A stretch of DNA of 64,000 nucleotides from Elusimicrobia bacterium GWB2_63_22 (GTDB lineage Bacteria; Elusimicrobiota; Elusimicrobia; Elusimicrobiales; UBA9959), in assembly GCA_001799735.1 (NCBI GenBank), contig MGUA01000009.1, positions 1-64,000 on the forward strand, written 5' to 3'. The translations under genes and the position numbers were made by a program. Of this stretch, positions 9,940-43,598 are shown in pieces (positions within the stretch are counted from its first letter, which is position 1; the number at the start of each line of letters is the position of its first letter). The notes beneath the pieces are model-generated. The model saw nothing but the letters and a program-made list of their open reading frames with translations, was not told the DNA's origin and made no database searches.

Positions 9940-9963
9940 GGGGGCGCGCTCTTCTTGTTTCCG

Positions 9964-9993
9964 CCGCCGGGCAGTCCCGGCGGTTTCGCTTTT
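9964..9993. terminator. Intrinsic terminator between convergent genes
   Basis: CCGCCGGG (9964-9971), loop CAGT, CCCGGCGG (9976-9983), then TTTCGCTTTT. Same family as the others. Confidence 0.8.
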
Positions 9994-10004
9994 TAAGGGG
10001 CTGG

Positions 10005-10682: not shown

Positions 10683-10688
10683 TCTGAC

Positions 10689-10694
10689 ATTCTA
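10689..10694 (-). promoter_or_regulatory. -10 element, leaderless type
   Basis: TAGAAT on the minus strand (10694-10689), 6 bases before the ATG at 10682. No convincing -35. Confidence 0.4.
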
Positions 10695-10770
10695 TATAAT
10701 CTCTCCGCCCTTGCGCTCCGGGCCGAGCGAAATGTTAGAATCCAATTGCCGGCAGCGGGGGGGAGGATAC

Positions 10771-11169
10771 ATGGTGCACAAATTCAAAGTGAACACTCTG
10801 GCCAGGTCGGAGATGGCCGATATTACGCGCGAGGTGCAGGGCGTGGTCCGCGAGAACGGGCTGGAGGGCGGCGTCTGCCATATCTTCGTGCCGCATACCA
10901 CCTGCGGCCTGGGCATAAACGAGAACGCCGATCCTGACGTTAAGCGGGATATCATCGCCAAGCTCGACGACGCCGTCTCGGAGGACTTCGACTATCGCCA
11001 CGCCGAGGGCAACTCCCCGGCGCATATAAAGTCCGTGCTGGTGGGGCCGTCGCTGACGGTTTTTGTGGAAGAGGGCGGGCTGCAGCTGGGCACCTGGCAG
11101 GGGATCTATCTTTGCGAATACGACGGGCCGAGGACGCGCGAGGTCTGGGTTAAGCTGGTAAAGGCCTGA
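10771..11169 (+). CDS. yjbQ: YjbQ/UPF0047 family protein
   Basis: 132 residues, the typical length. The family signature is intact: CHIFVPHTTCGLGINENADPDV, then GNSPAHIKSVLVGPSLTVFVEEGGLQLGTWQGIYLCEYDGPR. Members bind a metal through His/Glu residues and some have thiamine-phosphate synthase activity in vitro; the physiological role is unsettled. The start was set at the ATG preceded by GGGGGGAGG, which excludes 20 unlikely upstream residues. It converges on gsk, with the two stop codons held in one palindrome. Confidence 0.88.
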   Translation: MVHKFKVNTLARSEMADITREVQGVVRENGLEGGVCHIFVPHTTCGLGINENADPDVKRDIIAKLDDAVSEDFDYRHAEGNSPAHIKSVLVGPSLTVFVEEGGLQLGTWQGIYLCEYDGPRTREVWVKLVKA

Positions 11170-13354: not shown

Positions 13355-13393
13355 GCTGTCAAGCCCCTATTAAAGATTTAATATTTATTTGAC

Positions 13394-13422
13394 TTGCCAT
13401 CCGGCGGTACGCCTGTTATATT
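13394..13422 (+). promoter_or_regulatory. Promoter of the giant secreted protein
   Basis: TTGCCA (13394-13399), 17-base spacer, TATATT (13417-13422). A short leader of about 14 nt carries GGGTGGAG (13425-13432) before the ATG at 13443. Confidence 0.55.
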
Positions 13423-13442
13423 ATGGGTGGAGCTGCTGCCGT

Positions 13443-16400: not shown

Positions 16401-19400
16401 TCCATAATTCGCAGCACCATGACCAGCGTGAGCACCGGCTACCAGGCCCTGCGCATCTCCGGCGGGGCGTACAACACGGTGGCCGGCAGCTACATGTACA
16501 CCACGCTCGGCTACGCCCTGTCCATCGGCGTGAACTCCGGCTCCGACTACAACACAATAACCCAGAGCACCATGGCCAGCAATTCCATCCCGCTGTCCGC
16601 CCTCTATGTTTACCGCGCCTCGGGCAATACGGTGGACGGCTGCGTCATCTCCAACCCCTCCGGAGACGGCGCGTACCTCTGGGATAATTCCAATAACAAC
16701 ACGATCAGCCGCAGCAGCGTAACCAGCAACGCGGCCGGCAAATACGCCATGCATTTCTCAGGGTCCTCTGGTAACCAGGTGCAGGACAGCTACCTGGCCA
16801 ATCCTCCCGGCTACGGCCTGCAGTTCGCCGGCGGCGCCGTCAATCAGCTGCTTCGCAGCACGGTCAGCGTCAATTCAATTTACGCCGCGTTCACGCTGGA
16901 CAATTCCACCGGGAACACTGTTTCGCGCAGCGTTATCTCCAACCCTTCCGGCTACGGCGCCTTCCTGGGCTTCGGGGCGAACCATAACACTGTCGACTTC
17001 AGCCGCATTTCCGCCGACGCGGCGGACTATTTCGCGTTCAAGATACAGAGTTCCTCTTTTAATATCGTTTACGATAACTTCATCTCCAACCCCGGCGGGG
17101 TGGCTTATACCAGCGTGTTCGGGACAGGCAACGTGCTGGGCCGCAGCACGGTCACCAGCGGCGCCTGGCCTTACAGCGCCGTGTTCATAGACGCCTCGGA
17201 CTATCACGGAGTGAGCTATTCCTACATCCAGGGCGCCGATGCGCTGTTCGTGCGGGATTCCACCGGCACCGGCGTGGCTTACAACGTTCTTGCGGCAACC
17301 AACATGGCGGGCACTGGCTTGCGGCTGGATAACAGCGCGGGCCTGTTTTCTACCGCAAACCGCATCTCGGCGGGAGGCACCGGGACGCTTATCAACGCCG
17401 GCTGCTCCGGGGTTATTGCTGTAACTTCCGACACCGTGAGCGGCGCGGCCCGCGGTTTCAGCGCGGATGCGCTGGCCGACGGCGGTTCATTGGCCATGTC
17501 CGGAGTTATTTTTGAATCACTGGCCCCCGGGGCCACCGCCATCAATTTCCTCGGCGGCACCTTCGTCTCCACCATCGCTTACGCCACCTTTAACGGCACA
17601 GGCCCCCTGGTGAACGTGGACGGCAGCCTGCTGGCGCCCGGTTCCGCCGTGACCATGCGGGATTATTTCGGTCCGCGCGCCGGCCCCGCCTACGAGACCG
17701 ACCCCGGCAACCGCGTCTTCTGGTCCGCCGAGGACAGCGCGGCGCCTACCGCGGCCATACTGCAGCCGGCGAACAATTCTTTCCTCAACGCCCTGGGAGC
17801 GGTTTCCGGCACCGCTGCCGACGGGATGGCCGTGTCTTCGGTGACGGTTTCCGTGTACCGCAACGATACCGGCCTGTTCTGGGACGGCGCCGCCTGGGCC
17901 GCCGGACAGGCCTGGCTGAACGCCGCGGTATTCCCCTCGTCCTGGACTTTTACCGCCCTGCCCGCCCTGGTGGACGGCTCTTCGTACACTCTCAGCGCCA
18001 GAGCCATGGACAGCTCCAATAATTGGTCGGGGGCCGTCAACAGCGTGTTCACCTATGACGCAACGGCGCCGCTTTCGGCCGTAGTCCAGCCGGCCAGCGT
18101 ACAATCCGCGACCTTTACTTATATTTCCGGCACTGCGTTCGACGCGCACGGGCTGATGCAGGTGCAGGTGGGCGCCAGGCGCGTAGCCGATGCCGCCTAC
18201 TGGAACGGGAGCGTCTGGGCATCCACGCCGGCCTGGAACCTCGCCTCCGGCACTACTGTGTGGCTGTATGCGGGCATAAGCAGCGCGGCGCTGTCGGACG
18301 GGGCCACCTACCAGTTCATGGCCCGGGCCTATGACGCCGCCGGCAACGTTTCCGATCCCTTCGCCTCGGTCAGCACCTTCACGCTCGTCATCCCGCCGGA
18401 AGGCGTGTTCAGCCCGGCCCCGTTCAGCGGGATCGGCGCCGCGGCGCTCACCGTAAATTGGGGAACCACCTATCCCGCCGGAAAACTCTATTATGTGCGG
18501 CTCTCCAGCCACTCCGCCGCAACGCCGTCTGTGGGCTTCGCCACCGCCACAGCTTCAGCCTACGCGTTCGGCGGCCTGGCCCCCAACGCCCGGTACTACG
18601 GCTTCGTTTCCACCATGCCGGTTTCCGGCTTCCTGCAGACCGGCAGCGCCGTCACGCTGGCGGTCGCGCCTTCCTCCGCGGCCTTCTCGGGAGTGGCGTA
18701 CTCCAGCGCGGCCCTCACCTGGGCGGCGGGGGGCAACCCGGCGGGCACGGGCTACCAGTACGAGGTCGCCGTTTCTTCCTCTTTCGGGGTTATTGCCAGC
18801 AGCGGTTCCGGCACGGCCGCCGGCGGCTGGCTGACGGGGCTGGCGCAGGGCGCCACCTACTACGGCCGGGTGCGGGCTATTAACGGCGAAGGGACGCCTA
18901 CCGCCTACGCCTATGCGTCTCCGGCGGTAACGCGGGCGCTGCTGCCCACCGGCCTGGCGGCCGGTCTTGCCGGTTCCGTCTTTGGCGGCAACTCTATAAT
19001 CTGGTCCTGGACTTCCGGCACGCTGGCTGCCGCCGACTACCTGGCGGTCTACCATAACGGCGTCTTCGCCGGCACGGTCCCCTACTCGGCCTCCGGCACG
19101 GACCTGCAGGAGGAGCTGGCCCCCAATACCGCGCACACGCTGGGCATAGCCGGGCGCAATAGTTACGGCGAGGGGCCGCTGGCCCTTTCCGCGCCGGTCT
19201 ACACCAACGCCGCCGTCCCCGCCGGGCTGGCCGCGCAGCGGGTGGACGTCAGCAGCGCTGTCCTGGCCTGGACGCTCAACGGCAACTCGGCCGGCACCAC
19301 GGCGCAGCTCTGGCGCTCGGCCGACAACGTTACTTTCTCCAGCGTGTTCACCGGGGCGGCGCTCTCCTACACCGATACCTCCGTAGAGGAATGCTCTACC

Positions 19401-20894
19401 TATTACTACAAGGCCCGCAACCGCAACGGCGCGGGGGTGTATACCGGCTACACGGCCGCCGTCGCCTTCACCACGCAGGCTTCCACACCCGCGGCGCCCA
19501 GCGGGCTTTACGCCGAGGCGCTTAACGGCGCGCGCATAGCGCTGGCCTGGGATTTCTCGCCCTGGCCCGGCGTCACACAGTACAACCTCTACTACGACAA
19601 CGCCACCGGGGCAATAAATTATGCGTCACCCTACGCCGTATTCACCGCTACCGGGGCGTCCTACGTAACGCCGGCCCTTGCCGCCGGCAGCAGCTACAAA
19701 TTCGGCCTGCGTGCCGTTAACCGCTGCGGCATAGAGGAGAAGAACACAACCATCTCCGCCTCCGCCCAGGCCGTGGGCGTGCTCAGCGGCGTGCGCGCTG
19801 CCATAAAGGCGCCGCAGACCGGCAAGAAGATAAAAGGCAACAGCGTCACTATAGTGGCCGAGATCATACTGGGCCTGCCCTCGCAGATAAAGCAGGTGCG
19901 GTTCCAGTACCGGCTGGCCGGCGCCGTGCCCTGGACTGACGTTGCCCCGGCTAACGCCAACCATTCCAACCCGGACACCGAGAGCCCCTATTTCGTCCAT
20001 TGGGACGCAGACGCCATGGCGCCCGGTACCTACGAGCTGCGCGCGCTGGCCACCGATATATACAATACCGACGACCCCGCCCCGCCCGTGGTGACCGTGG
20101 TGATAGACCCGGTGGATTACGACACCAATGAGACGGTCTCCGGCGGCGTAATACAGAAGGAGCAGAAGATCAATAACGCCGTCACCAGCACGGTGCAGGC
20201 CGCCGACGACACCACCGCCCTGCTGACCAAGCTGGTCATTCCCCCGGGCGCGGTGGACGTGACCACCGTGGCCGTCACGCTGGTGGCCAACCCCGCCTCC
20301 CGGCCGGTCCCGCCCTCCGGCTCCGAGGAGCTGAGCCTGGCGGTGAAGATAAATCTTTCCAGCGGCCAGAGCCTGCTGTCGGGCGGCAAGACCGCGGCGG
20401 TGACGCTGAGCTACAAGGACGACAACGGCGACGGGATAGTGGACGGCACCAATGCGCCGCTGGACAGGCTGCGGATGTACTCCGCCCCCGACGGCGGCGG
20501 CGCCTGGACCGAAATGGCCACCTCGGTGGACCGGGAGAAGAAGACCATCTCCGGCGTTACGGCGCATTTCAGCTTCTTCTCGGTGTTCGCCTCGCCTTCC
20601 TCCACGCTGGGCGGCATCAAGGCCTATCCTAACCCGTGGCAGCCCGGCGCGGGCGGCAGGTTCGACGCCGCGGCGGGCATAACCTTCGCCAACGTGCCGA
20701 CCGGCTCCAGGATAAAGATCTTCACGATAATGGGCGAACTGGTGCGGCAGCTCGAAGTGACGGCGGCCGACGCCAATACCAAGCTTTGGGACGGCAGGAA
20801 CGCAGAGAGCCACAAGGCGGCCAGCGGCGTCTACATAGTGCTGGTAAAGTCCGGGTCCGCGGACAGAACGTTTAAAATAGCGGTAGAAAGATGA
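13443..20894 (+). CDS. Giant modular secreted protein with YWDG repeats, beta-propeller, beta-helix and type IX-like C-terminal domain
   Basis: 2,483 residues. Order: signal peptide (1-25, ending AFAQ); two Ig-like repeats with a (Y/F)W(D/N)G motif (about 35-255); SBBP/NHL-type propeller with DGSGNVFITGSGN-like repeats (258-603); a third YWDG repeat (620-720); a right-handed parallel beta-helix with SGNTVSRSVISNPSGYGAF-like turns (725-1405); YWDG repeats four and five (1433-1650); fibronectin III-like modules (1650-2115); an Ig-like module; a Ca-site-like strand DDNGDGIVDG within a further domain (2223-2385); and a final domain (2386-2483) with AYPNPWQPG, MGELVRQL, LWDGRNAESHKAASGVYIVLV. That last domain matches FlgD-like/type IX secretion C-terminal domains. 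It is coupled by ATGA to a PorV/PorQ gene. Probable cell-surface adhesin or polysaccharide-binding protein. Confidence 0.85.
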   Translation: MLKPVQLCLSILFGVLGAAVPAFAQDLTPPTVGVVVPAGYSHVNSLAEVSGTAHDASGVSDVQLSLVRLSDEYYWDGAAYTATPSFLTASVSSLTWTYATLPAFVNGAAYSVSARALDLASNWSVVYSTAVFYYDSNEPVSDVAYPVSGSVISTFTGISGTAWDAESFAPQVWVRVIRAADNQFWNGAISQWTAAEAWNLSVGSVTWTYSGLAQGDLTTGATYFVLSRAADLAGNVQAQVVNSSTFVYTGAAAGAGFTGDFSQPGGAAFDGGADDAATDIAIDTVTFGGPYLYVLGYSSRGPTMDSLVVKYNSSGVLVSSAIFDSGFNDSPEGIAVDGSGNVFITGSGNACVTVKYDSTLVLQSTASYPACVAQDLAIDRAGNVFVAGSKDDNALVVKYDNNLLIQSTAVYDGGDADVAVGVAADASGNIFSVIGTPLNGAGGNYLTMKLSNSLVIQATAVYNGGFRDWPEAIAVDALGNVYVTGESGNGLDTDALTVKYNNALLFQSSAAYNGGADDSSLGAAADNLGNVYVAGWSGNGSDNDLLLLKYSSGLMLLSTAAYNGGAEDWAAGVAAGSSGYVYAAGGSGSGGDSDFSVLRSSMAGQAPQDLPPPAPVIIQPPHNSVVNSMPQLSGTAIDDVAVSSVVLSIRRTADGLFWDGAAWAASQTWLSAATTGYSWFYGAVPAWTDTSTYTVNARAMDSSGSWSAAYSTSTFVFNSALPSGCAQAFNVKLDGSMEYQGIQAALNALPQSLSGNACVVLRDAATYNEQVTVRNFANNGYRIKIMADPSFVSSAPAVSPPALSTAAFLIFNDSVTLQGINISPANPVAYGVLSSSAGLTLAGVNVAAGGNIFTAGVSLSSGSVISGSGIAVQDAEGVMLTGTLSSVGQSTITCDTSRYSALTFSGASSNTVTGSFLSNPNGRVVYVSTSANGNAIAQSVIASDSNAIGMFAALYVRASSSNTVSDTVINNPSGVAAYLGVGANYNSIIRSTMTSVSTGYQALRISGGAYNTVAGSYMYTTLGYALSIGVNSGSDYNTITQSTMASNSIPLSALYVYRASGNTVDGCVISNPSGDGAYLWDNSNNNTISRSSVTSNAAGKYAMHFSGSSGNQVQDSYLANPPGYGLQFAGGAVNQLLRSTVSVNSIYAAFTLDNSTGNTVSRSVISNPSGYGAFLGFGANHNTVDFSRISADAADYFAFKIQSSSFNIVYDNFISNPGGVAYTSVFGTGNVLGRSTVTSGAWPYSAVFIDASDYHGVSYSYIQGADALFVRDSTGTGVAYNVLAATNMAGTGLRLDNSAGLFSTANRISAGGTGTLINAGCSGVIAVTSDTVSGAARGFSADALADGGSLAMSGVIFESLAPGATAINFLGGTFVSTIAYATFNGTGPLVNVDGSLLAPGSAVTMRDYFGPRAGPAYETDPGNRVFWSAEDSAAPTAAILQPANNSFLNALGAVSGTAADGMAVSSVTVSVYRNDTGLFWDGAAWAAGQAWLNAAVFPSSWTFTALPALVDGSSYTLSARAMDSSNNWSGAVNSVFTYDATAPLSAVVQPASVQSATFTYISGTAFDAHGLMQVQVGARRVADAAYWNGSVWASTPAWNLASGTTVWLYAGISSAALSDGATYQFMARAYDAAGNVSDPFASVSTFTLVIPPEGVFSPAPFSGIGAAALTVNWGTTYPAGKLYYVRLSSHSAATPSVGFATATASAYAFGGLAPNARYYGFVSTMPVSGFLQTGSAVTLAVAPSSAAFSGVAYSSAALTWAAGGNPAGTGYQYEVAVSSSFGVIASSGSGTAAGGWLTGLAQGATYYGRVRAINGEGTPTAYAYASPAVTRALLPTGLAAGLAGSVFGGNSIIWSWTSGTLAAADYLAVYHNGVFAGTVPYSASGTDLQEELAPNTAHTLGIAGRNSYGEGPLALSAPVYTNAAVPAGLAAQRVDVSSAVLAWTLNGNSAGTTAQLWRSADNVTFSSVFTGAALSYTDTSVEECSTYYYKARNRNGAGVYTGYTAAVAFTTQASTPAAPSGLYAEALNGARIALAWDFSPWPGVTQYNLYYDNATGAINYASPYAVFTATGASYVTPALAAGSSYKFGLRAVNRCGIEEKNTTISASAQAVGVLSGVRAAIKAPQTGKKIKGNSVTIVAEIILGLPSQIKQVRFQYRLAGAVPWTDVAPANANHSNPDTESPYFVHWDADAMAPGTYELRALATDIYNTDDPAPPVVTVVIDPVDYDTNETVSGGVIQKEQKINNAVTSTVQAADDTTALLTKLVIPPGAVDVTTVAVTLVANPASRPVPPSGSEELSLAVKINLSSGQSLLSGGKTAAVTLSYKDDNGDGIVDGTNAPLDRLRMYSAPDGGGAWTEMATSVDREKKTISGVTAHFSFFSVFASPSSTLGGIKAYPNPWQPGAGGRFDAAAGITFANVPTGSRIKIFTIMGELVRQLEVTAADANTKLWDGRNAESHKAASGVYIVLVKSGSADRTFKIAVER

Positions 20895-31494: not shown

Positions 31495-33231
31495 TTAATC
31501 TTTTGAGAGCTTCCGCGGCCGGCAATCCAGGTCCGCGGGGGCTTTTTCCTTATTGCCGCTCGCGGCGCGGGCGCGGCAGAGCAGATCCAGGGCGTAATCG
31601 GAGCGCTTCCGGGCCAGGGCCAGCTCGAAGGCCGCAGCAGCGCGCGCGGGTTCCCCGCCATAGAGGCGCAGCAGGCCCAGATTGATCAGCGGGCCGTCGC
31701 CGGTGATCTCTATGGCCGCGGACCTTTCGAAAGCGGCTGCCGCTTCTTCTGTCCGTCCCAGCCCGGCCAGCGCGGCCCCCAGGGCATTCCACGCTTCGTG
31801 GTTGAAATCCCAGGCTTGCAGCGAAGCGCGCGCCAGGGCTTCGGCCTCGGCGCTCCGGTTTTCCGTCAGCGCGGCCTGCGCCAGCGCGCCCAGGGTATGT
31901 GAGCGCAGGGCTTTGGCGGGGTTCAGCAGCAGCGCCTCGGTGAGGAGTCTCTCCGCGTCCGCGATCCTGCCCGTCTGCAGATAGTGCGTGCCCAGCATGT
32001 AGCGGGCCCAGGGGCTGCCGGGGTTCAACCTTGCCGCCCTGGTCCAGACGCCGGCCTCGTCGCGCCACAGCAGCTGCTGCTGTATCGACAGCAGCGCCAG
32101 CCCGGAGAAAATAACTGACGCCGCGGCCAGGGTGCGGCCGCTGCGCGGCAGGCCTTTAATCAGCGCGGCCAGCGCCAGCGCGGCGCCGGCCAGGGGCAGG
32201 TAGAGGTAGCGGTTGGAGGCAAAGACCGCAGAGAGGTACTCGGCCAGGTCGAGCAGCGGCAGCACGTTGAGGTAGGGCAGGATTATCAGCGCGGCCAGCA
32301 GCAGCCCGACAGCGGCGGGGTTATACGGGCCCGGAGCCTTCCGCCCGGCCCGCAGGGCGGCCCAGGCCAGGGCCGCGGCGGCGGCCAGCGCGCCCGCTCC
32401 GGCGAAACCCGGAAAAAGCTGTTTGCCGTAAACCGGGGAGAGCCAGAAAGGCAGCAGCAGGGTTTTGGCGTAGGCCGCCAGGCGCGCCGGCAGGTAGGCC
32501 GGGTCCAGGCCGGCCAGGCCGAAGCCGGAGCCGTCCATGGCGTAGGCGCGCGCGGCCAGGGCCCCGCCCCAGACTGCCGCAAGGGCGGCAAGTTCAGGCA
32601 GGCGCCGCCGGAATTCGGCCGTGCCGCCGCGCAGCAGCGGCAGCAGCGCGAAGAGCAGCAGGCCGGGGAAAGTCCTTTCCTTGAAAAGCAGCGAGGCCCC
32701 GAAGAGCAGCGCCGTGGCCGCCGCGCCCGCGCTCCCGCGCCCGTCGGAAGCTATAAAGCGGTGCAGGGCGGCCAGGAAAAAGATGGACGAGAAGATGGTG
32801 CCCGAGAACATCGCCGCCGTCAGGGTTTCCGCCTGGGCCGGGTGCAGCGCGAACAGCAGGCCGGCGGCCAGCGCGGCCGCCCGGTCGGCGGTCAGCAGCA
32901 GGGCCAGCCTGAACACCAGGCCCGCGCAGGCCGCATGCGCCGCTATGGAAACGGCGTGGAAGCCCCAGGCCTGCCAGCCGAAAATTTTGCCGGCCAGCAT
33001 GAAGAACAGGTAGGTGAGGGGTTCGTAGCCTTCGTTGCGGAACACGGCCGAATAGGACGGGCGGAACAGGCTGGCGGCGTTGGAGAGGTCGCGCAGGAAA
33101 TTATTATTCTGCACCGCCAGCACGTCGTCAAAGACGAACGGCAGCGGCAGCAGAGGGGCGAAGACCGCGGCGGCCAGCGCGGCGAGCGCGGCGTAAATCA
33201 GGAGGTTTTTTCTAGCCCGGATATTTTCCAC
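31495..33231 (-). CDS. GT-C-type membrane protein with C-terminal TPRs (TMTC-like)
   Basis: 578 residues from GTG. About ten membrane helices (residues 10-365) precede a TPR region (about 385-565: LGTHYLQTGRIADAERLLTEALLLNP, AWNALGAALAGLGRTEEAAAAFERS). An acidic pair in the first loop (PFVFDDVLAVQNN, about residue 35) matches the catalytic Asp motif of GT-C glycosyltransferases, and GYEPLTYLFFML with a second His-rich loop (HAVSIAAHAACAG) fits TMTC/O-mannosyltransferase-like proteins. It would transfer a sugar from a lipid carrier to an exported substrate. TAGAAT on the minus strand (33243-33238) lies 6 bases before the GTG, so leaderless. Confidence 0.75.
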   Translation of the reverse strand: MENIRARKNLLIYAALAALAAAVFAPLLPLPFVFDDVLAVQNNNFLRDLSNAASLFRPSYSAVFRNEGYEPLTYLFFMLAGKIFGWQAWGFHAVSIAAHAACAGLVFRLALLLTADRAAALAAGLLFALHPAQAETLTAAMFSGTIFSSIFFLAALHRFIASDGRGSAGAAATALLFGASLLFKERTFPGLLLFALLPLLRGGTAEFRRRLPELAALAAVWGGALAARAYAMDGSGFGLAGLDPAYLPARLAAYAKTLLLPFWLSPVYGKQLFPGFAGAGALAAAAALAWAALRAGRKAPGPYNPAAVGLLLAALIILPYLNVLPLLDLAEYLSAVFASNRYLYLPLAGAALALAALIKGLPRSGRTLAAASVIFSGLALLSIQQQLLWRDEAGVWTRAARLNPGSPWARYMLGTHYLQTGRIADAERLLTEALLLNPAKALRSHTLGALAQAALTENRSAEAEALARASLQAWDFNHEAWNALGAALAGLGRTEEAAAAFERSAAIEITGDGPLINLGLLRLYGGEPARAAAAFELALARKRSDYALDLLCRARAASGNKEKAPADLDCRPRKLSKD

Positions 33232-33460: not shown

Positions 33461-33507
33461 TAAAGCTCTGCGATAAAGCTGGCGGCAGCCGCGTATGGGG
33501 GGTCTTA

Positions 33508-36500
33508 ATGCTAAAAAATGCTTTTGTGGTTCTCCTTTTCGCGGTGCCGTGTTTCGGCGCGGCTCCTAAACCGGCCAAATTCGGCATTTCACTGCAGCGG
33601 ACCAACGGTGCCTCTGACGACAGGAAATACTCCATAACCTTCTCCCCCGACAACGCCAGCGTGGCGCTGGGCGGCATGACCCTGGTCGTGTGGAGCAACA
33701 AAGGATACCTCATTCGGGAGGTTCTCCCTCCGGCGGGCGGACGCTCTTTCTACGGCTTCGGGCTGCTCCTGTTCTCTAAGGACGGGAGGGAACTCGTCTC
33801 TGCCTCCAGGAGCGAGAAGACCGTTAATATCTATGCCGCGGCTTCGGGGAAGATACTGCGCACAATAACCCTCGGCACCGAAGGTAACGCCAGTTGCCTG
33901 GCTTTTTCCGGGGACGGGGGTACGCTGGCCATAGGTACCACCGAGGGCGCGGTGGAACTGTGGGATTACAAGCGGGACCAATTACTGAAACGTGTACAGG
34001 TTACCGACAATACTATCGGCCAGCTCGCCTTCCTGCGCGACGGAAGGCTGGTTTATGGCGCCGTGCAACTCTATACCATAGTGCGCACCCCAACGTCCGT
34101 CAGCAAGACCATGAATAGCGGGGACGTCGGGTTCGAAGTGGGGTTCGTGGGCGCCGTCGGCCGCGGCGGGAAGAGTTTTAAGTGGCGCAATAAAGCCGGC
34201 AGCGAGTTGTTCTCCTTTTCGCCAGGGACAGAAAGACTGGCTGTGCACGACAGGAACACCATCTGGGTGCTGGACAGCGGCTTCAATGTGCTGAAAAGCA
34301 CCGCCTTGGTCTCCGGCGGCCAGCCCATGGAGGCGGCCAGGGCGCTTTTAAGCCCGGACGGTTCGGAGCTGGCGGTAATAACGGCCCCCGGCAGTTCGTG
34401 CCGGAGGATAGTCTATTCCCTGCCGGGCTTGGCCAGGCTGGCCGATTACCCCCTGCCGGACCACTGGGACGTGCAGGCGGCCTATACGCCCGATTCCAGG
34501 TTCATCGGTATCGCCGGCCTCGGCGAGTCCAACAGGCTTATCGATCCTCACACCGGCACTTTGCACCTGGGCCTCCACAAACACGCCGACACACCAGTGA
34601 CCGCAGATATCAGCCCGGACGGAAAACATGTAGCTTCCGGAGGCAGTTCGGTGAGCCTGTGGCCTATAGCAGGCGGGACCCCTAAAAATGTGCCGAGTCA
34701 GTTTCTCGTTTCCAAGGTAATCCTTGCCCCGGATGGGCGGCATATAGTGGTAAGCCGACGTTATGGAATAGAAGTGACGGAATTGGACAGCGGGGAAAGC
34801 CATGTGTTAGAGGCTGGTCAAATAAGTCCGGTGGCGCTTAGTGCTGATGGCCGGAAGATAGCTTATATGCCTCCCTGGACCGGGGTCCCCTCTTCAATGC
34901 GCCTGGTGGTGCGCGACTCCGTGTCGGACAAGATCTATAACGAGATACCGGTGAACTATTGCCCGGTGGAAAAGGTCGGGTTCAGTTCTTCCGGCAGGTT
35001 CCTGGTTTGGGGCCGCGGCCTATACGACCTGAAAACTAATAAGTTGCTGACTACCATGTCCTCCAACGTGGTGGACGTAGCCCGGAACCTGATGGCCGTG
35101 GCCGGCTACGAGAACGGGGTAGTGGTACGTACCCTGGCCGGCCGTGAAATTGGTTACCCGCGGATCGCTGGCAGGGCCACCGTGCTGCGTTTTGCTCCGG
35201 GGGAAAAGGCGATAGCCGTGGGGCTGGATAACGGAGGCATAGAGCTCTGGAGCGGGCAGGATTTTAAGCGGGGTAAAAGGCTGGCCGGTCACCAGCAGGG
35301 CATAACGGACCTGGAGTTCAGCAGCGACGGGCGGTTCCTGGTATCCTCCAGCAACGACAATACCACCAAGGTCTGGAACCTGCGGAATTTCAGGCACTAT
35401 ACCCGTTTTTCCGGAGGCGGAGAGTGGCTCATCTATACTCCGGACGGCTATTTTGACGCTTCTCCCAGGGGCGAGGGACTGGCCGCCATGGTCAGCGGAA
35501 TGAATGTTTTTGGGCTGGAGCAGTTCGCGGCGCGCAATAACCGCCCGGATATCATCCTGGGCAGGATGGGTCTCGGCTCGCTGGAAGAGGTGGCCCATTA
35601 TAAGGAACTGTACCTGAGGAGGCTTAAGAAAATGGGCCTTACCGAAGCCGACCTGAGCGGGGAACTTCACGCCCCGGAGGCGAAGGTGATTTTGACGCGG
35701 CGCGAGGGAAAATTCCTGACCGTGGATTTCCTGCTTTCCGACACCAAAGTCCCCCTGAAGAGTTACAACGTCTTCGTGAATAATGTTCCGCTGTTAGGCG
35801 CCGACGGAAAAAGCGTTTCTGGCGGCAGCTTCCGGGGGAGCGAACGGATAGAACTCGCTTCCGGAAAGAACAAGATAGAGATCTCCGTTACCAACGGGGC
35901 CGGGGTGGAAGCCTACCGCGCCCAGGCCTACGCCGATCACGGTGAGAAACTGAAAGGCAGTCTTTACTACCTGGCCTTCGGGGTCTCGCGGTACAAGCTG
36001 CCGGAACTGGCCTTGAATTACGCCGATAAGGACGCACGGGACCTGGAAGACGTGGTGATGAGAATGCGCCCCAAATACGACAATGTTTTCTCCAAGGTGC
36101 TGCTTAATTCCGAGGCTACCGCGGAGAATATAAAGAGCGCCAAGGCGTTCCTGGCCGGCGCTAAGACGGATGACACCGTGGTGCTTTTTGCGGCCGGGCA
36201 CGGCGGGTACAGCCGGGGCGCGGACCCGAAGTATTATTACCTGCCGTACGAGGGGGACCCGGCCAAACCGGAGACTACTGGCGTGACTTTCGAGGCCATA
36301 GAATCTATGTTGGACGGCATAAAGCCGCGAAAAAAACTATTCCTGCTGGATACCTGCGATTCCGGCGAGCTCGACGAGGAGACCTTCGGCCGGTACTACG
36401 CCGCAGCCAAGGCCAGGGGCATAACGCCGCGCAGCTACCGCAAGCCGCTGAAAGTAAGGGGGACAGAAGAGGCCGCCCCCAGGCCTTACCTGTACGAAAA

Positions 36501-36795
36501 GAACCGACTCATCTACAACGACCTCTCCCGGCGCACTGGTGCTATTGTCTTCTCTTCTTCGCGCGGCGGTGAAATTTCGTATGAAAGTTCTGACATTCAG
36601 AATGGTTTTTTTACTCACGAAGTGATAGCGGCCCTAAGCGGCCGGCAGGCTGACCAGAACGGAGACGGCAAAGTGTCCACCAAAGAACTCAGGGGCTACG
36701 TTTCCGCCGCGGTAAAGACCAGCACTAACGGGCTGCAGAACCCCGCCGTGGACAGGGATAATATTTTTCAAGAAATAGAATTCCCTCTGCCGTGA
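33508..36795 (+). CDS. Secreted WD40-repeat caspase-family (C14) protein
   Basis: 1,095 residues. A signal peptide (1-18) is followed by two runs of WD40-like propeller blades (about 25-660; clearest blade LAGHQQGITDLEFSSDGRFLVSSSNDNTTKVWNL near 592-625), a linker domain (660-810), and a caspase/metacaspase p20-like domain (816-1095). The dyad is His898 in AAGHGGYS and Cys950 in LLDTCDSGE. A loop with EF-hand spacing (DQNGDGKVSTKE, 1049-1060) near the end suggests calcium control. Caspase-fold proteases in bacteria act in signalling and programmed death, usually in the cytoplasm; export is notable. First gene of a five-gene operon; Y-repeat upstream. Confidence 0.88.
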   Translation: MLKNAFVVLLFAVPCFGAAPKPAKFGISLQRTNGASDDRKYSITFSPDNASVALGGMTLVVWSNKGYLIREVLPPAGGRSFYGFGLLLFSKDGRELVSASRSEKTVNIYAAASGKILRTITLGTEGNASCLAFSGDGGTLAIGTTEGAVELWDYKRDQLLKRVQVTDNTIGQLAFLRDGRLVYGAVQLYTIVRTPTSVSKTMNSGDVGFEVGFVGAVGRGGKSFKWRNKAGSELFSFSPGTERLAVHDRNTIWVLDSGFNVLKSTALVSGGQPMEAARALLSPDGSELAVITAPGSSCRRIVYSLPGLARLADYPLPDHWDVQAAYTPDSRFIGIAGLGESNRLIDPHTGTLHLGLHKHADTPVTADISPDGKHVASGGSSVSLWPIAGGTPKNVPSQFLVSKVILAPDGRHIVVSRRYGIEVTELDSGESHVLEAGQISPVALSADGRKIAYMPPWTGVPSSMRLVVRDSVSDKIYNEIPVNYCPVEKVGFSSSGRFLVWGRGLYDLKTNKLLTTMSSNVVDVARNLMAVAGYENGVVVRTLAGREIGYPRIAGRATVLRFAPGEKAIAVGLDNGGIELWSGQDFKRGKRLAGHQQGITDLEFSSDGRFLVSSSNDNTTKVWNLRNFRHYTRFSGGGEWLIYTPDGYFDASPRGEGLAAMVSGMNVFGLEQFAARNNRPDIILGRMGLGSLEEVAHYKELYLRRLKKMGLTEADLSGELHAPEAKVILTRREGKFLTVDFLLSDTKVPLKSYNVFVNNVPLLGADGKSVSGGSFRGSERIELASGKNKIEISVTNGAGVEAYRAQAYADHGEKLKGSLYYLAFGVSRYKLPELALNYADKDARDLEDVVMRMRPKYDNVFSKVLLNSEATAENIKSAKAFLAGAKTDDTVVLFAAGHGGYSRGADPKYYYLPYEGDPAKPETTGVTFEAIESMLDGIKPRKKLFLLDTCDSGELDEETFGRYYAAAKARGITPRSYRKPLKVRGTEEAAPRPYLYEKNRLIYNDLSRRTGAIVFSSSRGGEISYESSDIQNGFFTHEVIAALSGRQADQNGDGKVSTKELRGYVSAAVKTSTNGLQNPAVDRDNIFQEIEFPLP

Positions 36796-36831
36796 AGCGG
36801 CGCGGGGTTGTGTAGGGGAAGAGGGATAAAA

Positions 36832-39800
36832 ATGGGAAACGAACGGCTTAAAACTGCGGCGGCGCTATGCTGCGCCTTCAGTCTGCTATCGCTTTTGCCA
36901 GTGGGCCGGCTCTGCGCTAACACGCCGCAAGAGGCGGCGGCTGCCCTTGTGGAAGCTCTGAAAAGTGCGGATCCCGGGCTCTGGTACAGGCAATTGAGCA
37001 AAGCTGATGTGGATTCCTTGCATGAAATGATCGGGGAACACATGAAGAACGAATTTGAAAAGGAACGCGCTTACAGGGAAAGAGAGTTAGGGAAGAAGAT
37101 AGAAGATATCTACGAATTTAAAGGCGGTCAGTTGGCGCTTTCTTTGGGGCCCTACTCCAGGGATAAGGGGCAGGAGAAGCTGTTCGACCTGTTCTTCATT
37201 AAGGATATCCGCGTTTGGGGCGGGCAATATGCCGAAGTGACGCTTTTTTTGCCGGTAGCGATAAGAGGCGTTCTCCCGCCGGTACGGCTTTCTTTTATAA
37301 AGGAGGCGGGGGAGTGGAAATTCTGCCAGTCCCTTTCAACGGCGTATTTTGTCCATGGCCGGAACGGGGACTTTGACTATTTCGTAAACATGTACCTAAA
37401 CCTGTTCTACGGGCTAAAGCTGGACCGGACTGACTCCTCTAAAATAAAGAGAAAGAGTTTCCGCCTGTCGAAAGAACTGTCCGATAAATATTTTACTGCC
37501 TGGAAGAACATGAAGAGTTACTCCGCGAAAGATTTTCTCGCTATGTGGCTGCTGACCGGAGATAAAAAAGCCATTCGGGTATGGGAAGAAGAGAAAACCT
37601 CCGGCAAGAAGACCCTGACGGACAAGGAATTGGAAATGTACAAGGGGTTCCTGTCCGGGAAGACGCAACCGTCCCGCCAGCCCGTCCCTCCGCCCGCTTT
37701 AGAGTCAGAACAATATTTTCAGTACGTGAAAGGGGCCTTCTTCCGGGATATACTGGCCTACAAAAAACTGCTGCTGAAATTTCCGGGAGACGAAAAGATG
37801 TGCGCCAAGGCGAAATACCAGATAGCGGAGAACTACGAGTATGCCAGGGAATACGCCCTGGCGGAAATGGTTTACCTCGGTTTCTTGAAGAAATATCCGG
37901 CCGCTGAGGACGAACCGAAAGCGCAGGCTAACCTGGCCAAGCTTTACTGGGATAAACTTGGGAAACAGGATGAGGCCGTTAGAATATGGAAAGAGCTGGA
38001 CGCGAAGGGGAAACTGCCTGCGGACGCTCCTTATAAAGCGGCCGGCAGGTTAGTGCCCAAGACGCTGGTTCAGAATCTTGAAGCCGGGTATATGCGCGGC
38101 ATAGTGGATTTTGACATTGAGCAGGACGGAAAATGGACCGACGTGCTTTATACTTCCGGCTCGGTAAAAGTCGGGGGCAAGGAGTACGTCCCCGCGGAAA
38201 ACAAGCTGGTCAGGTACCTGGAGAGCGGCCAGGGCAGCGAAATATACAGTAAAGAGATAGACTACGGCGGACAGGACAGTCAAAGTCATTTAAGCTACAG
38301 GAAAATGCAGGCGACCCGCAACGGGATTTGGCTGTATACGGCTATGTGCAACGGCCATGCCCTCTTCCTGTCCCCGGAGGGTAGGCCGTTGGCTCGTTTG
38401 CGCGACGAGGGCGACGTGCTGGCCGACCTGCCTCTCGAAGGCCGGGAGGGGCCGTATCCGTGGAAATATACCAACGAAGAGCATCTGCGCAGTCCTTATT
38501 GGCAGGGGGTTCACTTCGCCGATAAATATGTTTACGTCTACGCGGCGAACTCGGTGGCGCTGAAGAAATACGATGCCAAGACCAAAAGCTTGATCTCAAA
38601 AACGGTCCCTGCTCCGGGGGCCAGTCTTGGGAATTATTCGGCGAATATGGCGCCATCCGCTAAAGGGACCATGTTCGTGGTTTCCCCAGAGGCCGGAGTG
38701 GTGCTTGAGTACAACGACGAAGGTAAGGTAGTCGGCACTATTAAGGACGTCCGGACAGGGGTGCAGTTCGGGAATATCAGGGATATGGCCTTCGACAAAG
38801 AAGGAAATATGTACGCGGCTTTAGAGACTGACCATCAGATTGCGGTATTTTCAAAGGATGGCAAACTTGTAAATTCCTTCATCGACGAAACCGTTACCCC
38901 CACCAGCGTGGCCGTGGATGGGGCCGGGGATATCTATGTGAGCGGCTATGGAATGTCCATGGGCGGAACAACGGTGAAGATATATGACCGCAACGGCAAA
39001 GCCAAAACCTCTTTCAGCACACTGCACCCCAAAGCGACCGTAGCCAATGTGGGAATAAGAGACCTGGCTGTTACTGATGACGGGTTTGTTTATGTGCGGG
39101 TGGACACCGTGGTGGAACGCTATACCACGAAAGGAGAGCGGGTGGACTATTGGGTCATCCCGAATTCCGGGCAGGACGCGGTCATGTTTGCCGCCGATCC
39201 GAAGCGCAAGAAATTGTTCATGCTGAAGGGCCTTGAAGTTTATGAGTATGGCGGGCCCGGGACAAAAAAAATAGCCGATCTGCGACTGCCCGAAAAACCA
39301 TACTCCCCGGTAAAGATGGTGGCCGCTTTCGGCGCGGACAAGCGGGGAAACTTGCAGGGGCATGTCAGCAATATCGGGGTATTCAGTTTTGATCCGGATA
39401 AGATCAGCGGCGGCACCGTCCCGCTCGGCATCGGCGGGGCCAAGTATGGCTCACAGATCTCGCTCGAGCGCACGGGCTTGGACCGGGACGGCAACATCTG
39501 GTCCTGTAATTCCAGGAACTACGGCAAGGGTCCCGTTATAGAAAAATACGGCCCGGACGGGAAGCAGGTTCTTAAAATACCTCAGGCGGAGGGGACCAGG
39601 AATTCATGGAAACCGGTAGATATTGTGAAGTCCTGTAAGGACGAACTTCTTGTGGCGGATTCCGCCAACCGGCGCATAGCGAAATACACCATGTCCGGGA
39701 AATACTTGGGGGATTTCGACCTTACGCCGTATATGAGCGGCTGGATACAGCGGCTGAGGGTGGACTCCAAAGAACGCTTGTATATACTTTCCAGCCAAAT

Positions 39801-39858
39801 GGGAAAGCAGTTTATTCTCCGCTTTGACGGAGTGGTTTTTAAGGAAACGCGGAACTAA
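36832..39858 (+). CDS. Secreted TPR and NHL-type propeller protein
   Basis: 1,008 residues with a signal peptide (1-29, RLCAN). An N-terminal domain (30-280) of unknown type; a TPR/YbgF-like helical region (about 293-395; CAKAKYQIAENYEYAREYALAEMVYLGFLKKYP); then a long beta-propeller (403-1006) with NHL/SMP-30-like repeats such as IRDMAFDKEGNMYAALETDHQIAVFSKDGKLV, TSVAVDGAGDIYVSG and ELLVADSANRRIAKYTMSGKYL. No catalytic site is evident; a binding or sensor role is likely. It starts 36 bases after the caspase gene behind GAGGGATAAAA. The in-frame TTG at 36808 was rejected. Confidence 0.8.
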   Translation: MGNERLKTAAALCCAFSLLSLLPVGRLCANTPQEAAAALVEALKSADPGLWYRQLSKADVDSLHEMIGEHMKNEFEKERAYRERELGKKIEDIYEFKGGQLALSLGPYSRDKGQEKLFDLFFIKDIRVWGGQYAEVTLFLPVAIRGVLPPVRLSFIKEAGEWKFCQSLSTAYFVHGRNGDFDYFVNMYLNLFYGLKLDRTDSSKIKRKSFRLSKELSDKYFTAWKNMKSYSAKDFLAMWLLTGDKKAIRVWEEEKTSGKKTLTDKELEMYKGFLSGKTQPSRQPVPPPALESEQYFQYVKGAFFRDILAYKKLLLKFPGDEKMCAKAKYQIAENYEYAREYALAEMVYLGFLKKYPAAEDEPKAQANLAKLYWDKLGKQDEAVRIWKELDAKGKLPADAPYKAAGRLVPKTLVQNLEAGYMRGIVDFDIEQDGKWTDVLYTSGSVKVGGKEYVPAENKLVRYLESGQGSEIYSKEIDYGGQDSQSHLSYRKMQATRNGIWLYTAMCNGHALFLSPEGRPLARLRDEGDVLADLPLEGREGPYPWKYTNEEHLRSPYWQGVHFADKYVYVYAANSVALKKYDAKTKSLISKTVPAPGASLGNYSANMAPSAKGTMFVVSPEAGVVLEYNDEGKVVGTIKDVRTGVQFGNIRDMAFDKEGNMYAALETDHQIAVFSKDGKLVNSFIDETVTPTSVAVDGAGDIYVSGYGMSMGGTTVKIYDRNGKAKTSFSTLHPKATVANVGIRDLAVTDDGFVYVRVDTVVERYTTKGERVDYWVIPNSGQDAVMFAADPKRKKLFMLKGLEVYEYGGPGTKKIADLRLPEKPYSPVKMVAAFGADKRGNLQGHVSNIGVFSFDPDKISGGTVPLGIGGAKYGSQISLERTGLDRDGNIWSCNSRNYGKGPVIEKYGPDGKQVLKIPQAEGTRNSWKPVDIVKSCKDELLVADSANRRIAKYTMSGKYLGDFDLTPYMSGWIQRLRVDSKERLYILSSQMGKQFILRFDGVVFKETRN

Positions 39859-39886
39859 GAGCGGCACAATAGCCGGAGGGGCACTA

Positions 39887-41002
39887 ATGGCCAGAATCTT
39901 GTACGGGGTTTCGGGAGAAGGCAGCGGGCACGCCACGCGCAGCAAGGAGATACTCTCCGGGCTGGTGAAGAAGCACCGGGTGAAGGTGCTGGCCTATGGC
40001 AAGTCCTACGACCTGCTAAAGGACTGCTTCGACACGCAGAAGATCTACGGCCTGCACCTCTATTACAGGGACGGCTCGGTGGATTACCTGCGCACGGCGC
40101 TTGCCAATCTGCGCCGGATGCCGGCCGAACTGGACGGCACCTTGGCCGGGGTGAAAGCCGTGATGAAGCGGTTCCGGCCCGAGGTGGTCATTTCGGACTT
40201 CGAGCCTGTCTCCGGGCTGCTGGCCAGGCACAACCAACTGCCGCTCATCTCGCTGGATAACCAGCATATCTTCACCAATTGCGACGTAAAATACCCGCGG
40301 CGTTTCGCGCGGGAGGCCGGGGTGAACCGGCTGGTGATAGGGGCCTACCTGCCGCGCATAAGCGAAACGCTCATAACCTGTTTCTACCATCCCCGGGTCA
40401 CCAGGCCCGATACTTATCTTTTTCCGCCCATACTGCGCCGCGCCATACTGGCGCAGAAGCCGCGCGCGGGGCGGCATGTGCTGGTGTACCAGACCGCCAG
40501 CGGGGATGACTCCATAGCGGGCGCGCTCAAGAACTGCCCCGGCGAGTACATCTTCTACGGCTGCAACAAGGACCAGCGTGACGGCAACATAACGTACCGC
40601 AAGTTCAGCGAGGAAGGCTTCATAAAAGACCTGGCCTCCTGCCGCGCCGTGGTTTGCAACGGCGGACTAAGCCTTATGAGCGAAGCCCTGCACTTGGGAA
40701 AGCCGATATTTTCCGTGCCCATCGCCGGGCAGTTCGAGCAGATAGCCAACGCCTATTACCTGGAAAAACTGGGCTACGGGCGCTACCGTCCGGCGCTTAC
40801 CGCCCTGGGCTTGCGGGACTTCCTGAAGAATATAGAGCTTTACTCGGCAAATCTGAAAAAATATCCGCGAGCCGACAACTCGGCCATTGCCGCCAAGCTG
40901 GAAGAGCTCATAGCTGCGCATGCGGGAAAGATAGCTCTGAAAAAACCGCGCCTCATAGGCCGGATGGCAGGAAAAATCCTGGGCTGGGAAAAAAAGAAAT
41001 GA
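39887..41002 (+). CDS. MJ1255/VC2487-family glycosyltransferase
   Basis: 371 residues, cytoplasmic, GT-B fold related to MurG/GT28. Signature regions: ARILYGVSGEGSGHATRSKEIL at the N-terminus, ISDFEPVSGLLARHNQLPLISLDNQH in the first Rossmann domain, and in the second VCNGGLSLMSEALHLGKPIFSVPIAGQFEQIANAYYLEKLGYG, which is the nucleotide-sugar donor site. It ends in a short basic tail. This family is uncharacterised enzymatically, but the donor site indicates use of a UDP-sugar, perhaps on a lipid acceptor at the inner membrane. GGAGGGG precedes the ATG; 28 bases separate it from the upstream gene, and the next gene overlaps by ATGA. Confidence 0.88.
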   Translation: MARILYGVSGEGSGHATRSKEILSGLVKKHRVKVLAYGKSYDLLKDCFDTQKIYGLHLYYRDGSVDYLRTALANLRRMPAELDGTLAGVKAVMKRFRPEVVISDFEPVSGLLARHNQLPLISLDNQHIFTNCDVKYPRRFAREAGVNRLVIGAYLPRISETLITCFYHPRVTRPDTYLFPPILRRAILAQKPRAGRHVLVYQTASGDDSIAGALKNCPGEYIFYGCNKDQRDGNITYRKFSEEGFIKDLASCRAVVCNGGLSLMSEALHLGKPIFSVPIAGQFEQIANAYYLEKLGYGRYRPALTALGLRDFLKNIELYSANLKKYPRADNSAIAAKLEELIAAHAGKIALKKPRLIGRMAGKILGWEKKK

Positions 41003-42078
41003 AATTCAAGCTTCCGCTGCTCACCGCGCTGGCTGGCTTTCTGGCCCTCTCCGCGTCGCCCCTGCCCGCCTGCGATATAAAGCCGGACGAAGAACTGGTG
41101 TTTTTCGGCAGCTACGGCTGGCTGGACCGGAAGTCGGGCGAGTGGAACGTCTCCGTACACGGCTGGATCTACGAGCCGGAGGAGGATTCCGCGGTCATAG
41201 GGACGCTGTCCAAGGCGTTCGGCAAAATGCTGGGCCTGAAGAAAGCAGACCTGGCCTCGTCTGTCTACGAAGAAAGGAGCCGCCGGTTCTTCGTGGATAA
41301 CGAAAGGGGCAAGGTTCTGCGCGTGGAAATAGCCGGGCTCGGGCCGTTTAAACTGGTTAAGTCCGCGCCGAATGGGCACATGCGCGATGTGGTGCGTATA
41401 AAGGACGGCGCCCCGGGATTTTCCGGCGGGGCGGTGAAGGTGCGCACGCTGTGCGCCCAGGGGCACAGGACCTTCGAGGGCGAGATAGCGCTGATAAGCC
41501 CTGAGGGTCTTTCCGTGGTGTCCGATATCGACGACACCATAAAGATAAGCGAAGTGCGCGACAGAACGGCGCTGGTGGCCAACACTTTTGTGAAACCGTT
41601 CACCGCGGCTCCCGGCATGGCCGGGCTATACGGCCGCCTGGCAGAAAAGGGCGCGTGGTTCCATTATGTTTCTGCCAGCCCCTGGCAGTTGTACGCGCCG
41701 TTGGCGCGGTTCATGGTCGAGAGCGGCTTTCCCGGCGGGACGCTGGAGCTTAAGACGTTCCGCTGGAAGGATCGGACTTTCCTTTCACTGTTCCAGAAAC
41801 CGGAGGCGTACAAGATCCCGGTTATAACTAAGCTGATAGAGACTTTCCCCGGGAGAAAATTCATCCTGATAGGGGATTCCGGCGAGAAAGACCCGGAGAT
41901 CTACGGCGCGATAGCCAGGCAATTCCCCGGGAACGTTTCCAAGATACTTATACGCGACGTTACCGGCGAGAAAGCGGACGCGCCGAGGTTCCTGGCCGCG
42001 TTCAAAGACCTGCCGGGGACCCTTTGGCGGGTTTTCGAAAAGCCGGACGGTGTAGACATGGGAGAGATGAAGCTATGA
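40999..42078 (+). CDS. APP1/lipin-like phosphatidate phosphatase, exported
   Basis: 359 residues with a signal peptide (1-24, LPAC). A first domain (30-165) matches the N-terminal part of APP1-type proteins (DEELVFFGSYGWLDRKSGEWNVSVHGWIYEP). The catalytic domain (DUF2183) has DxDxT as Asp176-Ile-Asp178-Asp-Thr180 (VVSDIDDTIKISEV), then FHYVSASPWQLYAPLARFM and KFILIGDSGEKDPEIYG, the HAD motifs II-IV. APP1 removes phosphate from phosphatidate or lysophosphatidate. The apparent signal peptide puts it in the envelope. The true start overlaps the glycosyltransferase stop; the frame upstream to 40654 is a shadow. Confidence 0.85.
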   Translation: MKFKLPLLTALAGFLALSASPLPACDIKPDEELVFFGSYGWLDRKSGEWNVSVHGWIYEPEEDSAVIGTLSKAFGKMLGLKKADLASSVYEERSRRFFVDNERGKVLRVEIAGLGPFKLVKSAPNGHMRDVVRIKDGAPGFSGGAVKVRTLCAQGHRTFEGEIALISPEGLSVVSDIDDTIKISEVRDRTALVANTFVKPFTAAPGMAGLYGRLAEKGAWFHYVSASPWQLYAPLARFMVESGFPGGTLELKTFRWKDRTFLSLFQKPEAYKIPVITKLIETFPGRKFILIGDSGEKDPEIYGAIARQFPGNVSKILIRDVTGEKADAPRFLAAFKDLPGTLWRVFEKPDGVDMGEMKL

Positions 42079-43598
42079 GGAACCTGAGGATATTTCTGCT
42101 TGCTGCGGTACTGCTGCCGCTGGGTTTTGAGGCCGGAGCCGGCAAAGAGACCGGCGGTCCCGCCCGTATAACCGCGGAGCAGGTGGATAGCGACCTGAAA
42201 ACGCTGGAGATCTGCCGGGCGGGGCTCAGGGCGCTCGACGGCTATGTGCGGTCCAGGGCGGGGCTTTACGGCAAGACCGCGGCGGATCGGATCTATACCC
42301 GGGAGGAAAAAGAAGAGGTCTGGGGTCTCTGGAAGTCCTACTTCGACTACCTTGTGACCCTAGACCGCCTGGGCAAGAAATACGGCGACTCGTACGACAA
42401 GCTGGAGAAGCCTCTCCGGCAGGGCGCTTTCCTCGCGGCCTACGGCGCTTTTATGGCGCAGTACAGTTCGGCGCTCACGGTGATAGAACAGCTGGAAAAG
42501 AACGGCGCCATAGACGTAATACTCAACGAGGATGTGCCGGAGGCCGGTATCCCTAAGGGCAGTTACTTTAAATTTAAGTTCCGGTTCCTCAACGCCGCGC
42601 GCGCCGCCGAATTCGTGGCGCTGGAGGTGCTGTACGCCCATTATAAGGACGTAAGCCATCCCGGTTCCAGGAAAGCGGCCGAAGAGGATGCGGGCTTCAT
42701 CTGGAAGCACGGCCGGGTGAAGGGGCAGGTTCAGACGCTGAGGAACGCCATGGCGGTGGTTAAAAAGGCCGGCTTCACCGCCTGGTTCCCGGTGCAGACG
42801 GAGGTTTCCGAATTCATGGGCGACGCTAAGGTTTACAGGCGGCACAGCTCCCTGATAACGCAGGAGCAGATAGCCCGGATAGCCCCGCTGCTGGAACCGG
42901 GGGACATCTTCCTGGAGCGGAGGGAATGGTATCTTTCCAATGTGGGCCTGCCGGGGTTCTGGCCCCACGCCGCGCTTTATGTGGGCGGACGGAACGAACG
43001 CGACGCTTATTTCAGCGGGCCTGAAGTGGTCGTCTGGGCCAAACAGCTGGACCCCGTCTGCGGCAGCCTGGACTGCGTGTTGAAGGGCAAATACCCCGAG
43101 GCTTATGAAACCAGCCTGCGGCCGTACATGGGGCACGCGCCAAAGGTGCTGGAGGCCATGAGCGAAGGCGTGACCTTTACCAGCCTGGAACATTCCCTGG
43201 AAGCAGATTCCATAGTGGTGCTGAGGCCCAGGCTCCCTAAAACGGAAAAGGCGCAGGCCATCCTCAAGGCCTTCCACTATTCAGGCCGGCCTTACGACTT
43301 CAACTTCGATTTTCAGACCGACGACACCATAGTCTGTTCCGAGCTGGTCTACAAATGTTACGAGCCTTCCCCGCGGATGAAAGGCATAAGGTTCGAGACC
43401 GAAAAGGTGATAGGGCGGCACGTAAGCCCGCCGAACCTGATGGCCAAGCAGTTCGACGTAGAGTACGGCACCGACAGGCAGCAACTGGACATGATATTAT
43501 TCCTCGACGGGCGCGAGTGGGAAAAGGCCGCTAAGGCGTCTACGTTGGAGGAGTTCCGTCGGAGTTGGAAGCGGCCGAAGTGGTACATCTGGCAGTGA
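42075..43598 (+). CDS. Exported YiiX-like permuted papain-fold enzyme
   Basis: 507 residues with a signal peptide (1-22). A helical N-terminal half (30-270) is unrecognised. The C-terminal domain is a circularly permuted NlpC/P60 (C92/YiiX) type: PGDIFLERREWYLSNVGLPGFWPHAALYVGG with His298, then ADSIVVLRPRL and, after a further 100 residues, TDDTIVCSELVYKCY with Cys421, reversing the usual Cys-before-His order. Members include lipid acyl-hydrolases/transferases and amidases. Coupled by ATGA to the phosphatase gene, which suggests successive steps on one lipid or glycolipid. Last gene of the operon; no clear terminator follows. Confidence 0.83.
   Translation: MRNLRIFLLAAVLLPLGFEAGAGKETGGPARITAEQVDSDLKTLEICRAGLRALDGYVRSRAGLYGKTAADRIYTREEKEEVWGLWKSYFDYLVTLDRLGKKYGDSYDKLEKPLRQGAFLAAYGAFMAQYSSALTVIEQLEKNGAIDVILNEDVPEAGIPKGSYFKFKFRFLNAARAAEFVALEVLYAHYKDVSHPGSRKAAEEDAGFIWKHGRVKGQVQTLRNAMAVVKKAGFTAWFPVQTEVSEFMGDAKVYRRHSSLITQEQIARIAPLLEPGDIFLERREWYLSNVGLPGFWPHAALYVGGRNERDAYFSGPEVVVWAKQLDPVCGSLDCVLKGKYPEAYETSLRPYMGHAPKVLEAMSEGVTFTSLEHSLEADSIVVLRPRLPKTEKAQAILKAFHYSGRPYDFNFDFQTDDTIVCSELVYKCYEPSPRMKGIRFETEKVIGRHVSPPNLMAKQFDVEYGTDRQQLDMILFLDGREWEKAAKASTLEEFRRSWKRPKWYIWQ

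Follow-up and report, generated by a model that had tools for sequence, protein, structure and literature searches.

A caspase that appears to be exported and is encoded just upstream of lipid-type enzymes raises the question of whether the five genes concerned work as one conserved system in which, as the original prediction had it, the sensor/effector role falls to the caspase and propellers. The locus lies in Elusimicrobia bacterium GWB2_63_22, and the window considered here is the whole stretch of 64,000 nucleotides that was analysed. Five open reading frames on the + strand were confirmed. They encode a WD40-caspase (gene 1, 33508-36795), a TPR and NHL-type propeller protein (gene 2, 36832-39858), an MJ1255/VC2487-family glycosyltransferase (GT; gene 3, 39887-41002), an APP1/lipin-type putative phosphatidate phosphatase (gene 4, 40999-42078) and a long-form YiiX/YaeF-like enzyme of the C92 permuted papain-like type (gene 5, 42075-43598). 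Genes 1 and 2 are separated by 36 bp and genes 2 and 3 by 28 bp, while the ends of genes 3/4 and 4/5 overlap, each reading ATGA, so that the predicted single-strand layout held on the coordinates of the reading frames. With this spacing the five genes are likely expressed jointly. By eye, a hydrophobic signal-like N-terminal segment was seen in every product except the GT, in agreement with the four signal peptides that had been proposed, and these four are putatively exported. A terminator pattern scan returned 21 sites versus 13 in shuffles, mostly within genes, and an Rfam search of the window gave no match. The GC3 of the operon genes is 0.65-0.77, compared with 0.80-0.89 in most flanking genes. 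Elsewhere in the window, a PMT-like membrane protein with TPR repeats (31495-33231, - strand) is encoded divergently from the caspase. A 2501-aa open reading frame (13389-20894) contains beta-helix, SBBP propeller, fn3 and Ig-like domains and a C-terminal FlgD-Ig-like segment, and its end overlaps a PorV-like gene that starts at 20891; this pair resembles a large surface protein and its outer-membrane partner.

Profile matches and alignments confirmed the domain names and catalytic residues that had been assigned to all five genes. The caspase combines a WD40 propeller with a Peptidase_C14 domain (PF00656, E 1.3e-12) and has the His/Cys dyad of a C14 orthocaspase, His898/Cys950, which was kept in 7/7 aligned sequences (the window's own and orthologues from six other genomes). 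The EF-hand-like loop near residue 1049, which was part of the same claim, fared less well, since its match is weak (E about 1e-3) and it is only partly conserved, varying among the orthologues. Gene 2 gave matches to NHL/SGL-like propellers and to YbgF/TPR, all of them weak. A reading of the locus as anti-phage defence was rejected, as PADLOC returned weak caspase and HEAT matches only, and none for the other four genes. The GT belongs to the Glyco_trans_1_3/MJ1255 family, with 209.7 bits for TIGR00661 against a cut-off of 195.9, and had no significant match among solved structures. Its identification as an MGDG synthase or diacylglycerol glucosyltransferase was rejected, because it is without the PF06925 domain and has only a weak profile link to the MGDG-type GTs (hhalign 63%, C-terminal 129 columns). 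A separate PF06925 GT is present on another contig (C5) of the same genome.

The last two genes gave the clearest structural results. Gene 4 matched APP1_cat with an E-value of 1.2e-46, and the DxDxT motif of HAD phosphatases (DIDDT at residues 176-180) was conserved in 11 sequences, in which D176, D178, D179 and T180 are invariant and I177 varies. Loss of the caspase Cys/His or of DxDxT among relatives had been named beforehand as evidence against the original prediction, and on inspection both were kept. The AlphaFold2 model of gene 4 (pLDDT 89.4) has the lipin fold, an Ig-like plus a HAD domain, and matched Nir2 LNS2 with phosphatidic acid (3e-11) and lipin (1e-9) best, over most of its length and with a prob of 1.00; from this likeness we infer that the protein may act on phosphatidate. 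Gene 5 was assigned to Peptidase_C92 (E 3.8e-16; PF05708, 60 bits versus a cut-off of 27) and has the features of this family, i.e. a permuted papain fold in which His precedes Cys, together with Glu and Tyr. His298, Tyr407 and Cys421 were invariant and Glu360 was kept in over 90% of 48 sequences. In the model of gene 5 (pLDDT 89.8), a helical N-terminal domain (about 34-250), for which we found no convincing match among solved structures, precedes the catalytic domain (about 265-500), and the C-terminal half matches E. coli YiiX (2if6) with a prob of 1.00. Gene 5 as YiiX itself was rejected, since it reached 30.2 bits with the equivalog model NF007458, where the cut-off is 216, and it is thus called YiiX-like only. 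Among other YiiX-like sequences, paralogues were seen in which the catalytic His is replaced (L057) or His and Cys are both replaced (L060), and these are likely inactive copies judging from their residues.

Of 341 genomes of the phylum, none besides the window's own had all five genes as a set. Across these genomes a YiiX-like match occurred in 14, a strong APP1 match besides that of the window in two (G065 and G180), and a strong GT match in one (G150); in the other same-genus genomes searched there were no close homologues of the GT, APP1 or YiiX-like genes. Caspase orthologues with 48-74% identity over the C-terminal part were present in at least five related genomes (G009, G028, G153, G007 and G230), where no close GT, APP1 or YiiX-like gene was found and the neighbouring genes look unrelated. 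Near the G028 orthologue there is a PMT/TPR-type protein (L167:2336-4186) that looks similar to the one beside the window's caspase, with no BLAST match between the two. In the Elusimicrobia genome G189, a distant caspase lies ~7 kb from a YiiX-like gene (L054:2-2281 and 9492-11024). Gene 2 has distant homologues only, in G014 (same genus) and, on a different contig from that caspase, in G189 (L171:1304-4216).

The sole near-identical relative of the locus, G150, belongs to another genus and is the one further place where the caspase-GT junction recurs. Its 4.3-kb contig ends within the GT, so that the comparison covers the caspase and the start of the GT, and not APP1 or the YiiX-like gene. 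This contig is 85% identical in DNA to 33498-36802 and then, after nine bases, 92% identical to 39872-40155, and its GT shares 96% identity over 90 residues, up to the contig end. Because G150 passes from caspase to GT within nine bases, the TPR/NHL gene, which is absent there, lies outside the shared caspase-GT unit and can be regarded as an optional insert. The common DNA begins at 33498-33507, just 5' of the caspase start codon; further upstream the G150 sequence is unrelated to that of the window and, on visual inspection, codes for the last part of an ABC-type ATPase, which means that the caspase-GT unit occupies different places in the two genomes. A broken caspase gene in G150 was considered and rejected, since the apparent frame change falls on a stretch of N in the sequence entry. 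As a rule the orthocaspase is solitary in these bacteria; in two genera it is followed by the GT.

A different picture emerged for the right-hand genes when the YiiX-like alignment was scanned against genome contigs. This gave 205 relatives, of which the best-scoring 80 were kept, a sample that is phylogenetically unbalanced. Around these 80 genes there were 16 loci with a PF06925 GT, 3 with an MJ1255 GT and 8 with an APP1, and the APP1 of L078, found with its own APP1 query, was counted as a ninth APP1 place. All 28 matches are on the same strand as the YiiX-like gene and 26 are adjacent to it (within 700 bp), many with overlapping ends. They fall in 23 loci from Elusimicrobia, Verrucomicrobia/PVC, Deltaproteobacteria (Geobacter, Desulfobulbaceae and others) and Betaproteobacteria, and the other 57 of the 80 had no such neighbour, some of them at contig ends. 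All three genes occur together in L053/L078, L122 and L157. Gene order is GT, YiiX, APP1 in Elusimicrobia and Verrucomicrobia (L053, L122, L157), YiiX, GT in Geobacter and Desulfobulbaceae, and GT, APP1, YiiX in the window. Among solved structures, the profile of the MGDG-type GTs matches diacylglycerol glucosyltransferase (2e-68) and the MGDG synthase of plants (1e-56). An alpha/beta hydrolase and, further along, an Aas-type acyltransferase/AMP-ligase are additional members of the L053 operon. In three Deltaproteobacteria/Desulfobulbaceae loci (L104, L114, L128) an MJ1255-family GT lies directly 3' of the YiiX-like gene, which offers a clue to the acceptor used by this GT family; a literature search found no paper on the subject, and for the window's GT gene position suggests that the acceptor could be a lipid. 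No caspase adjoined a YiiX-like gene among the best 80 of the 205 relatives, the only other caspase match being a weak one ~7 kb away in L140.

Judged by gene order, the last two or three genes form a module, and the idea that the last genes are lipid-type enzymes that belong together is supported both by their recurrent adjacency in distant bacteria and by the model matches of APP1. As for co-occurrence, which had been suggested as a check, the five families are scattered, against the proposal; the GT, APP1 and YiiX-like genes recur together, in its favour; and the caspase-GT pair was met once more, in G150. A conserved five-gene system was therefore rejected, on the absence of the set elsewhere, the solitary caspase orthologues and the missing gene 2 in G150, and the sensor/effector role foreseen for caspase and propellers was likewise not supported, given orthologues that stand alone and 80 YiiX-like relatives without a caspase alongside.

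The best explanation is that the locus was probably acquired horizontally as an operon of two parts, because its GC3 is lower, close homologues of the GT, APP1 and YiiX-like genes are absent from the congeners searched, and the flank in G150 is different. On balance, we favour a phosphatidate-to-glycolipid remodelling cassette that was acquired and joined downstream of an exported orthocaspase. The left part would comprise this orthocaspase, which in two genera has come to precede the GT and in one of them has gained the TPR/propeller gene, and the right part (GT, APP1, YiiX-like) would be a glycolipid or acyl-lipid remodelling module. Working on the outer side of the inner membrane, exported APP1, for which fold and active site are observed and substrate and place putative, would remove the phosphate from phosphatidate and so yield diacylglycerol. 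Diacylglycerol would then cross the membrane and the cytosolic GT would add a sugar to it; glycosyl-diacylglycerol is the presumed product because MGDG-synthase-type enzymes replace the GT in relatives. Finally, the exported YiiX-like cysteine enzyme may, by analogy with its family, remove or transfer an acyl chain of glycosyl-diacylglycerol or a related lipid. Since APP1 and the YiiX-like enzyme look exported and the GT cytosolic, this pathway needs a lipid to cross the membrane, which counts against it.

Several other explanations have to be weighed against this cassette. The YiiX-like enzyme could instead be an acyltransferase on lipoproteins or another lipid, with GT and APP1 only disposing of or reusing a diacylglycerol or lyso-lipid by-product. 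S. aureus LnsA, which is required for lipoprotein N-acylation, is likewise permuted papain-like (PMC7387801), and the YiiX-like gene is the most widespread member of the set, often without GT or APP1; however, a general neighbour survey, not specific to LnsB, recognised no LnsB-like (CPBP) partner among the recurrent neighbours, and a helical N-terminal domain sets the long form apart, so that we regard this alternative as rather unlikely. Less probable still is that the caspase truly regulates the lipid module, the propellers sensing an envelope signal and the protease activating or removing the exported phosphatase or YiiX-like enzyme. Although the caspase shares an operon with the lipid genes, adjoins the GT in another genus too, where the flanks differ, and carries the catalytic dyad and EF-like loop in its sequence, its five orthologues without lipid genes and the caspase-free surroundings of the YiiX-like relatives argue against such a role.

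Proteolytic control of lipid enzymes by the caspase is accordingly a conjecture, and the full version of it, in which an orthocaspase with propeller sensors switches phosphatase, glycolipid synthase and cysteine enzyme in signal-driven envelope remodelling, seems quite improbable to us; if functional, the link would connect caspases of bacteria with the remodelling of lipids. We give least credence to the five genes being chance neighbours after separate insertions, with only co-transcription in common. The absence of gene 2 in G150 and of the whole set from the rest of the 341 genomes would fit such an origin, but not the adjacency of GT, APP1 and YiiX-like genes in distant phyla, with 26/28 adjacent and 28/28 on one strand. 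For the favoured remodelling cassette, the recurring neighbourhood, on which we found no paper in a literature search for the YiiX/GT/APP1 set, gives YiiX-like enzymes a concrete, testable lipid pathway, and in the module, phosphatases of the lipin type that carry signal segments are neighbours of a glycolipid-type synthase.

Each part of the locus can be compared with known systems. A 2012 survey of prokaryotic metacaspases found WD40 to be the domain that most often accompanies them, and listed none of these proteins in Elusimicrobia (PMC3501461). The window's caspase resembles such metacaspases/orthocaspases in its C14 domain, His/Cys dyad and WD40 repeats, and differs in its signal segment, EF-like loop and place ahead of lipid genes. 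APP1 shares the DxDxT HAD core and preceding beta-sandwich of the APP1/lipin phosphatases (PF09949; lipin/Pah 7lhk; Nir2 LNS2 9jtz), whereas it is bacterial, carries a signal segment and has phosphatidate as a putative substrate. In relatives, the operon position next to the YiiX-like and APP1 genes is taken by processive diacylglycerol glucosyltransferases/MGDG synthases (PF06925), but the GT of the window belongs to the MJ1255/VC2487 family and is only weakly related to them by profile. Little is understood of what bacterial YiiX-like enzymes do physiologically (PMC7387801); a fatty acid was reported to be bound in E. coli YiiX (PMC3142127), and Tox-Act1, a permuted relative, acts as a phospholipase that cleaves phosphatidylglycerol and phosphatidylethanolamine (PMC12994826). 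Gene 5 shares the catalytic fold and the His/Glu/Tyr/Cys set of the YiiX/YaeF-like permuted NlpC/P60 enzymes (PF05708; 2if6), and is set apart by its ~220-residue helical N-terminal domain, a conserved C-terminal SWxRPKW segment and its place in an operon with GT and APP1.
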